Assembly (NCBI GenBank): GCA_029238665.1
Contig: JAQWFQ010000030.1
Span: forward strand, 1-64,000
Reading direction: 5' to 3'
Source of the DNA: Crocinitomicaceae bacterium
Lineage (GTDB): Bacteria; Bacteroidota; Bacteroidia; Flavobacteriales_D; Crocinitomicaceae
Length of the DNA stretch: 64,000 bases
Position numbers and translations under genes: made by a program. Of this stretch, positions 2,315 through 16,822 are shown piece by piece. The notes beneath the pieces are model-generated. The model did not search any database. It was given only the letters and a program-made list of their open reading frames with translations, and was not told the DNA's origin. Numbering within the stretch: position 1 is the first letter of the stretch; each line of letters opens with the position of its first letter.

Positions 2315-2337
2315 AATTCAAAAATAGTTAAATCGAA

Positions 2338-2802
2338 TTAACTCGCTAGGTTGATTAGTATTTCTTTGTATTCTTGGTAAAACTTATCAAAGCGAACAAG
2401 CTTATCCTTTAAGAATTCATAGATCTTAGGGATATCCTCTTTATTGTAATAGTTTAGAGTGTTGTCTTCCCACTTAATGCGTGAAATTAAGCGGCCATTC
2501 CAATAGTGACTTTCTTCAAGCCAAATTGCCTCAAGGCCCATTTCAGAAGTCATGAGCGATTTCATTTCATTCATTTGTTCCCAAAGGATAGAGCGAACAC
2601 CATCGTCTTTTGGTTGAATGTCATAGCATAAGCGAACACCTTTAGGATCTACCTCCATACGGACATAGGCATCTTTTAAGTCTGACGGATAATTGATCCA
2701 GTTCATTTGCCTTCCGTTGACAGATCTAACGTCTTTGATGTCTTTTCTAAATCCTTCCCAAAATTCTGTATTGAGGTTTTTCTTTTCTTCTTTTGATAAC
2801 AT
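2338..2802 (-). CDS. DUF4268 domain-containing protein
   Basis: This 154-residue soluble protein matches DUF4268 over most of its length. Recognisable parts are the N-terminal NTEFWEGFRKD, the aromatic strand QMNWINYP, and the central VRLCYDIQPKDDG. It has no signal peptide or membrane segment. Family members are short cytoplasmic proteins of unknown role; some larger relatives are fused to nuclease-like domains, but this one is the single domain. It precedes the T9SS protein gene. No catalytic residues can be assigned with confidence. Confidence 0.85.
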   Translation of the reverse strand: MLSKEEKKNLNTEFWEGFRKDIKDVRSVNGRQMNWINYPSDLKDAYVRMEVDPKGVRLCYDIQPKDDGVRSILWEQMNEMKSLMTSEMGLEAIWLEESHYWNGRLISRIKWEDNTLNYYNKEDIPKIYEFLKDKLVRFDKFYQEYKEILINLAS

Positions 2803-2978
2803 AAATGTGTTTTGCTGTTAATGCGTTGTAAAAGTACGCTTATCCTCTTTAAAAACAGCTACAATTACCTGTCAAATATTGATTGAAGGCTTGAGGGGTA
2901 ACGTTCAATTATAATTGAATTTGATGAATGATAAGGTTTGTGCGAATATTTTGACCCTCTACTCAGGTATAGCTAAAG

Positions 2979-2986
2979 TATATTTG
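2979..2986 (+). promoter_or_regulatory. Bacteroidota -7 box TATATTTG upstream of the FemAB-like gene
   Basis: TATATTTG matches the Bacteroidota -7 consensus TAnnTTTG. A TTTG at 2950-2953 could be the -33 element, although the 25-bp spacing is longer than usual. It would give a leader of about 75 bases to the GTG start at 3065. Confidence 0.45.
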
Positions 2987-3064
2987 GTCTAAATTAGCAC
3001 ACTGTTTAAATACTGTGTTAACATCATTATCCTTATTTTTACTGCCAAATCAAGACTAAGAAGA

Positions 3065-16395: not shown

Positions 16396-16428
16396 AAAAT
16401 GCCTTTCCTTAATTTGGAAAAGCATTTT
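16396..16428 (-). terminator. Rho-independent terminator after the cysteine-rich lipoprotein gene
   Basis: The arms at 16396-16408 and 16416-16428 are 13 bases each and pair with a single mismatch around a 7-base loop. Read on the minus strand the stem runs straight into a run of nine T. It lies 25 bp past the lipoprotein stop. Confidence 0.8.
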
Positions 16429-16453: not shown

Positions 16454-16822
16454 CTACCTGCACTCCTCTGGGCAAGCATCAGTACATTTGTGCGATGCGT
16501 GCTCAGCCTTACAAGCTTTAGAACATTCTTTTTTGCTTTTACATTCAGATTTATCTTTACAGCTTGACTTTCCTTTGCATTCAGTCTTACCCTCACACTT
16601 CGACTTGTCTTTACAGCTTGACTCACCCTTACATTCTTTTTTACTTTTACATGCTTTTTTATCAGCTGAACAACATGCCTTCTTATCTTCATCTTTGCAT
16701 TTCTTTGCGCACTCAGTTTTAACACCTTCCTGACATTTATCTGCTTCAACGTCATAGTTTCCATTACACGCAATTAATACCACAGATAATAATGCAGGGA
16801 TAATAAATTTAAATAGTTTCAT
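16454..16822 (-). CDS. Cysteine- and lysine-rich lipoprotein with a period-6 Cys repeat
   Basis: This 122-residue protein starts with a lipoprotein signal (MKLFKFIIPALLSVVLIAC, lipid on C19). The mature part has 17 further cysteines. Eight of them, C58 to C100, fall exactly every six residues in units such as CKGESS, CKDKSK, CEGKTE. An 18-residue block (KGESSCKDKSKCEGKTEC) is followed at once by a near copy, so the array probably grew by tandem duplication. Other cysteines sit at 30, 38, 42, 50, 51, 104, 113, 117 and 121. Longer frames on both strands overlap the gene, but only this one has a signal peptide. Metal binding or a disulfide-laddered rod are both possible; I recognise no family. 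Confidence 0.85.
   Translation of the reverse strand: MKLFKFIIPALLSVVLIACNGNYDVEADKCQEGVKTECAKKCKDEDKKACCSADKKACKSKKECKGESSCKDKSKCEGKTECKGKSSCKDKSECKSKKECSKACKAEHASHKCTDACPEECR

Follow-up and report, generated by a model that had tools for sequence, protein, structure and literature searches.

A cysteine-rich lipoprotein family of a Crocinitomicaceae genus: a putative envelope-anchored, metallothionein-like chelator

What is the role of a lipoprotein in which eight cysteines lie exactly six residues apart, and does its spacing reflect a fold? The question is raised by a 122-amino-acid protein (MKLFKFIIPALLSVVLIACNGNYDVEADKCQEGVKTECAKKCKDEDKKACCSADKKACKSKKECKGESSCKDKSKCEGKTECKGKSSCKDKSECKSKKECSKACKAEHASHKCTDACPEECR) encoded in a MAG from the Crocinitomicaceae (Flavobacteriales; 2.2 Mb, 34 contigs, 98.45% complete). 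We analyzed the first 64,000 nucleotides of contig JAQWFQ010000030.1, which we will call the window. The initial annotation had proposed either a metallothionein-like metal trap at the cell surface or a disulfide-laddered solenoid, as in some antifreeze proteins. We propose that this is an envelope-anchored, metallothionein-like thiol lipoprotein that is selected for its density of cysteines. We give this reading, including its predicted metal binding, a probability of roughly 55%.

The gene (16454-16822, minus strand) is an open frame with an ATG start and a TAG stop, and it has homologs within its genus. Compared to the nearest clear ortholog, from genome G016, dN is 0.50 and dS is 1.30 (ratio of ~0.38, from 94 codons). 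For another pair of orthologs (L003 and L004), dN is 0.031 and dS is 0.44 (ratio of ~0.07). At the level of substitution rates, this shows that the gene is under purifying selection. Directly 3' of the stop codon is a terminator-like hairpin with a T run (16396-16428, minus strand), and in most orthologs, the stop is likewise followed directly by a hairpin and a T run. Because dN/dS is below 1 and the stop codon is followed by a terminator-like hairpin, the frame appears to be translated. A pattern search found no Bacteroidetes-type promoter upstream of the gene, and there was no Rfam element near it.

The gene order at this locus is rhomboid protease, aminotransferase class IV, lipoprotein, cold-shock-domain protein, and DEAD-box helicase. 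The upstream neighbor (PF01063; 16933-17781, minus strand) marks a locus that is conserved by synteny. The downstream neighbor (PF00313; 15588-16115, minus strand) is also found at the locus in several relatives.

Residues 1-19 form a signal peptide and lipobox (MKLFKFIIPALLSVVLIA-C19; 16766-16822, minus strand). The lipobox, LIAC, ends at C19. Both elements are kept across the family alignments (M1, K2, P9, and C19 are conserved), which agrees with the original description of the protein as a lipoprotein, and C19 is predicted to be lipidated. A location at the cell surface fared less well. In Bacteroidetes, the export signal of surface lipoproteins is a pair of acidic residues shortly after the lipidated cysteine, as defined in other genera (PMC5080379), and the signals may not be those of this genus. 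Since residues +2 to +6 are NGNYD, without paired acidic residues, we do not predict that this protein is exposed at the surface. Some orthologs (CSNDD or CSSEE) resemble the export signals.

The protein has cysteines at positions 19, 30, 38, 42, 50, 51, 58, 64, 70, 76, 82, 88, 94, 100, 104, 113, 117, and 121. Counting these positions confirms the 17 cysteines that had been reported after the lipidated one, as well as the exact six-residue spacing of the eight from C58 to C100. This array spans 43 residues (C58-E99 plus C100 with its last codon; 16520-16651, minus strand). The array also contains the tandem duplication of an 18-residue block that had been noted, in about 2.4 copies: two full units of 54 bases (CKSKKECKGESSCKDKSK and CEGKTECKGKSSCKDKSE; residues 58-93; 16544-16651, minus strand), followed by CKSKKEC, which is the first seven residues of a third copy. 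The full units are identical at 39 of 54 bases, and seven of their codon differences are synonymous while five are non-synonymous. Tandem Repeats Finder reports an 18-base period at the array. When we shuffled the mature protein 200,000 times, at least eight cysteines at any constant spacing from 2 to 12 appeared in 15 of the shuffles. The six-residue regularity is beyond composition alone, and tandem duplication is a simple and direct cause of it.

Cysteine makes up 17% of the mature protein, versus 0.79% of the 25 large open reading frames in the window. The mature chain after C19 has 103 residues, with one aromatic residue and 12% hydrophobic residues. Near the C-terminus, the protein has the motif CxxxCxxxC (C113, C117, and C121; 16457-16486, minus strand), which is common to most of its relatives (alignments A1 and A3).

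Searches with this protein, followed by alignments (A1 and A4), identified family members in 14 of the 34 genomes of the genus (G000, G002, G003, G007, G014, G016, G017, G020, G022, G027, G028, G029, G031, and G033). In 11 of the 14, the gene is located behind that of the aminotransferase, within about 1 kb of it and on the same contig. In the other three (G007, G017, and G028), it lies away from the aminotransferase locus. In the tree of the aminotransferase, the focal species groups with G001 (support 92/82), then with G015, and then with G016. At this locus, G001 encodes a lipoprotein that is rich in cysteine and whose signal peptide and C-terminal module both differ; we consider it a positional equivalent whose homology is unproven. 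In G015, there is no cysteine-rich gene at the locus. We found no clear member of the family outside the genus among 240 Crocinitomicaceae genomes and 399 Flavobacteriales genomes. Weak matches at the level of the order (G804, G676, and G226) are Lys-rich proteins with 5-6 cysteines and are not lipoproteins of this family, and another match (G069) is a cysteine-poor lipoprotein and was false.

The initial annotation suggested that the protein might be new. This holds for the family, which has no description in the literature that we searched: the focal protein has only chance-level matches in Pfam and NCBIfam, a sequence search of the PDB gave one chance match, and the relatives have no credible match in Pfam or NCBIfam either. 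The kind of protein is familiar. The best description of the family is cysteine-rich and metallothionein-like, but with a predicted lipid anchor, no CxC or CxxC motifs, and spacing that changes freely.

Is the six-residue spacing a feature of this family? It is not kept in the homologs, an outcome that the initial annotation had named as one that would refute its interpretation. The signal peptide is retained in the relatives, and so is a high density of cysteine (9-17% of the mature chain), while the number, parity, and register of the cysteines, and the charge of the chain, vary. MK..KFI.P and the lipobox are common to the orthologs, as are several columns of cysteine. In at least one of the two alignments, there is little or no variation at C42, C50, C58, C94, C100, C104, C113, C117, and C121, but repeats align loosely and the alignment of the array is uncertain, so the near-invariant columns within it should not be over-read. 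Members have from 7 to 18 cysteines after the lipidated one, and the number is odd in 9 of the 14. The commonest spacing in the orthologs is four (CxxxCxxxC), and among their listed commonest spacings, there is at most one spacing of six per ortholog, versus seven in the focal protein. The G016 ortholog is sparse, with just 7 mature cysteines; the G027 member has five-residue units of EGKC; and in the sister species (G001), the protein at the same locus has K/S-rich cysteine units about eight residues apart. Net charge is +7 for the focal protein, -8 to -28 for its relatives, and -2 for the protein from G001. On these sequence comparisons, the best reading is that the hexads are a species-specific repeat expansion, rather than a structural register common to the family.

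We also looked for hexads elsewhere, by searching a sample of 395 Bacteroidota genomes with a hexad DNA pattern. In the loci that we fetched, we saw no other convincing protein in which eight cysteines lie six residues apart. The other matches were mostly low-complexity sequence, with repeats of the Ala/Gly or Gln type that were read in another frame. An apparently unrelated lipoprotein from G008 (L019:1495-1803, minus strand) has hexads of CEGDHK and CEGDSK, so hexads can arise independently.

Because the membrane anchor and the density of cysteine are kept, and the number, parity, register, and charge are not, a chelator or a thiol sink fits better than a fold that is defined by disulfides. 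Between these two, we prefer chelation because of the metallothionein-like composition, the stretches rich in His, Asp, and Glu in the relatives, and the precedent of lipidated, cysteine-rich copper chelators at bacterial membranes: the oxazolin lipoproteins (PMC12636315) and the bufferin lipoproteins (PMC12452194). We propose that the protein is exported by Sec, is lipidated at C19, and is anchored in the envelope, where it would probably face the periplasm. A disordered, Lys/Ser-rich chain would then offer soft metal ions (Cu(I), Zn, Cd, or similar) many thiolates, which would bind them in clusters. What would matter is the count and density of the cysteines, not their exact register, and the hexad rhythm would have arisen when a short unit with a cysteine was duplicated in tandem in the focal lineage. 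Since the focal protein is basic and its relatives are acidic, its metal or partner could differ from theirs.

AlphaFold gave no confident fold, with mean pLDDT of 43.6 for the focal protein and 44.4 for the L004 ortholog, and there are no strands in the model of the focal protein. As these models drew on 14 aligned sequences, the low pLDDT is weak evidence of disorder. Metallothioneins fold only upon metal binding (PMC7558416).

Several observations count against the proposal of a chelator. The envelope is oxidizing, so free thiols would need protection there. More than half of the genomes of the genus, among them that of the close relative G015, yielded no member of the family. Also, there was no metal gene among the ten neighbors that we scanned with Pfam.

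How does the protein compare to known bacterial metallothioneins? Like SmtA/BmtA, PmtA, and MymT, it is small and cysteine-rich, has few aromatic residues, and is probably disordered without metal, and metal binding by clusters of thiolates is the mechanism that we propose for it. Bacterial metallothioneins usually have CxC or CxxC metal-binding motifs. In contrast, the mature focal protein has CxxxC and Cx5C spacing with no CxC, no CxxC, and one CC; it has a lipoprotein signal; and it matches no Pfam or NCBIfam model and no PDB structure. Because the usual motifs are absent, and because we infer the metal binding, we do not class this protein as a metallothionein. The copper storage proteins Csp1 and Csp3 also have many cysteines, and in the relatives, the CxxxC spacing could place cysteines along one side of a helix. 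But Csp proteins are rigid four-helix bundles before they bind copper, and Csp1 has a Tat signal (PMC7558416), whereas the focal protein has a lipoprotein signal, low model confidence, and no Pfam match.

A more specific version of our proposal is tentative. The family may be a genus-specific "thiol polymer" of the envelope: an unmodified lipoprotein, found mostly at one conserved locus, with cysteine density as the main selected trait. It would then represent a new family of metal buffers in the Flavobacteriales that resemble metallothioneins and are anchored to the membrane. The repeat unit, the spacing, and the charge may turn over between species via short tandem duplications. If this is correct, then an environmental genus of flavobacteria buffers metal with an unmodified, membrane-anchored, cysteine-rich protein, a role that has so far been described for cytosolic metallothioneins and for lipidated peptides that are modified by enzymes. 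It would also be a clean case of selection on composition at a single locus, with the register left free. A free register would explain why libraries of profiles miss such proteins, and it would imply that a fold need not be regular just because the spacing is strikingly so.

An alternative is that the protein is a thiol redox buffer, in which the cysteines take up oxidants, electrophiles, or reactive sulfur at the envelope, either sacrificially or reversibly, and any metal binding is incidental. The conserved density and free spacing of the cysteines fit this idea as well, and PmtA, a metallothionein at the cell surface, is protective under oxidative stress (PMC11237414). In several relatives, there is a gene for an NADPH-dependent FMN reductase-like protein nearby. 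However, this gene does not adjoin the focal gene, and it also occurs where there is no lipoprotein gene (L086-L089). The His- and acid-rich stretches of many of the relatives look more like metal ligands. Although sequence cannot separate a redox buffer from a chelator, we consider the redox buffer to be rather unlikely.

It is less probable still that the protein is cross-linked by disulfides, within or between chains, to build a tough covalent network or a spacer in the outer membrane. Export to an oxidizing compartment, the many cysteines, and the hydrophilic and elongated chain would suit such a role. But with 7-18 mature cysteines and an odd number in most members, full intramolecular pairing is not conserved, and the G016 protein keeps just 7.

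We doubt even more that the protein is a RiPP precursor, in which an MNIO or radical-SAM enzyme converts the cysteines to a metallophore. Lipidated oxazolins and bufferins are MNIO-modified peptides with a proposed role in holding copper at the membrane (PMC12636315, PMC12452194), and, like the focal protein, they are lipoproteins with repeated cysteines. MNIO genes are present in 4 of the 34 genomes of the genus, with one beside a DAKCGEKGKSG-repeat precursor, and the G027 relative has EGKC(G) repeats. On the other hand, in the focal genome, at 98.45% completeness, we found no MNIO (PF05114) and no SPASM-domain protein (PF13186; this search covered SPASM-type radical-SAM maturases). Nor is there any modifying enzyme or other biosynthetic gene among the ten neighbors scanned with Pfam. 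The focal protein has no EGKCG motif and no bufferin model among its NCBIfam matches. Furthermore, in G016 and G003, the MNIO gene is on another contig than the lipoprotein.

Finally, it is hardly credible that the protein is a beta-solenoid with a disulfide ladder, perhaps one that binds ice like the protein of Tenebrio: the exact spacing over 43 residues does match that between C2 and C8 in the 12-residue tandem repeats of beetle antifreeze proteins (TCTxSxNCxxAx; PMC8038014), but the focal protein has no TxT or TCT ice-binding motif, its hexads are charged (CKSKKE, CKGESS, and CKDKSK), the spacing is absent from every homolog, the parity of the cysteines varies, and the low-confidence AlphaFold model has no strands.

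We made several other observations about cysteine-rich proteins in these genomes. The family member from G027 (L100:6401-6769) has EGKC(G) repeats like those of oxazolin precursors, yet we found no MNIO gene in the G027 genome. In G019, an MNIO gene (L195:1492-2325) lies beside an exported precursor with DAKCGEKGKSG repeats (952-1395) and a partner gene (2318-3049); this cluster (L195:952-3049) looks like an oxazolin-type metallophore cluster. In G709, a genome from another family of the order, there is a 120-residue lipoprotein (L209:905-1267) that has 15 cysteines as well as an EGKCG motif and whose kinship to the present proteins is uncertain. The family member from G002 (L036:1501-1860) consists of two near-identical tandem copies of CTDECAEKCKxxGCDENCEGQCEHKAS, a different way for repeats to grow at the locus. 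Also, the membrane pyrophosphatase HppA (L010:1-1860, plus strand, and L011, minus strand) has a cysteine-rich C-terminal tail of about 110 residues. The last part of this tail (KCDMSKCAEMTKEECAKMCDDKGC) is similar to the C-terminal end of the G001 lipoprotein (L084:5902-6258) and to an open reading frame of L150.
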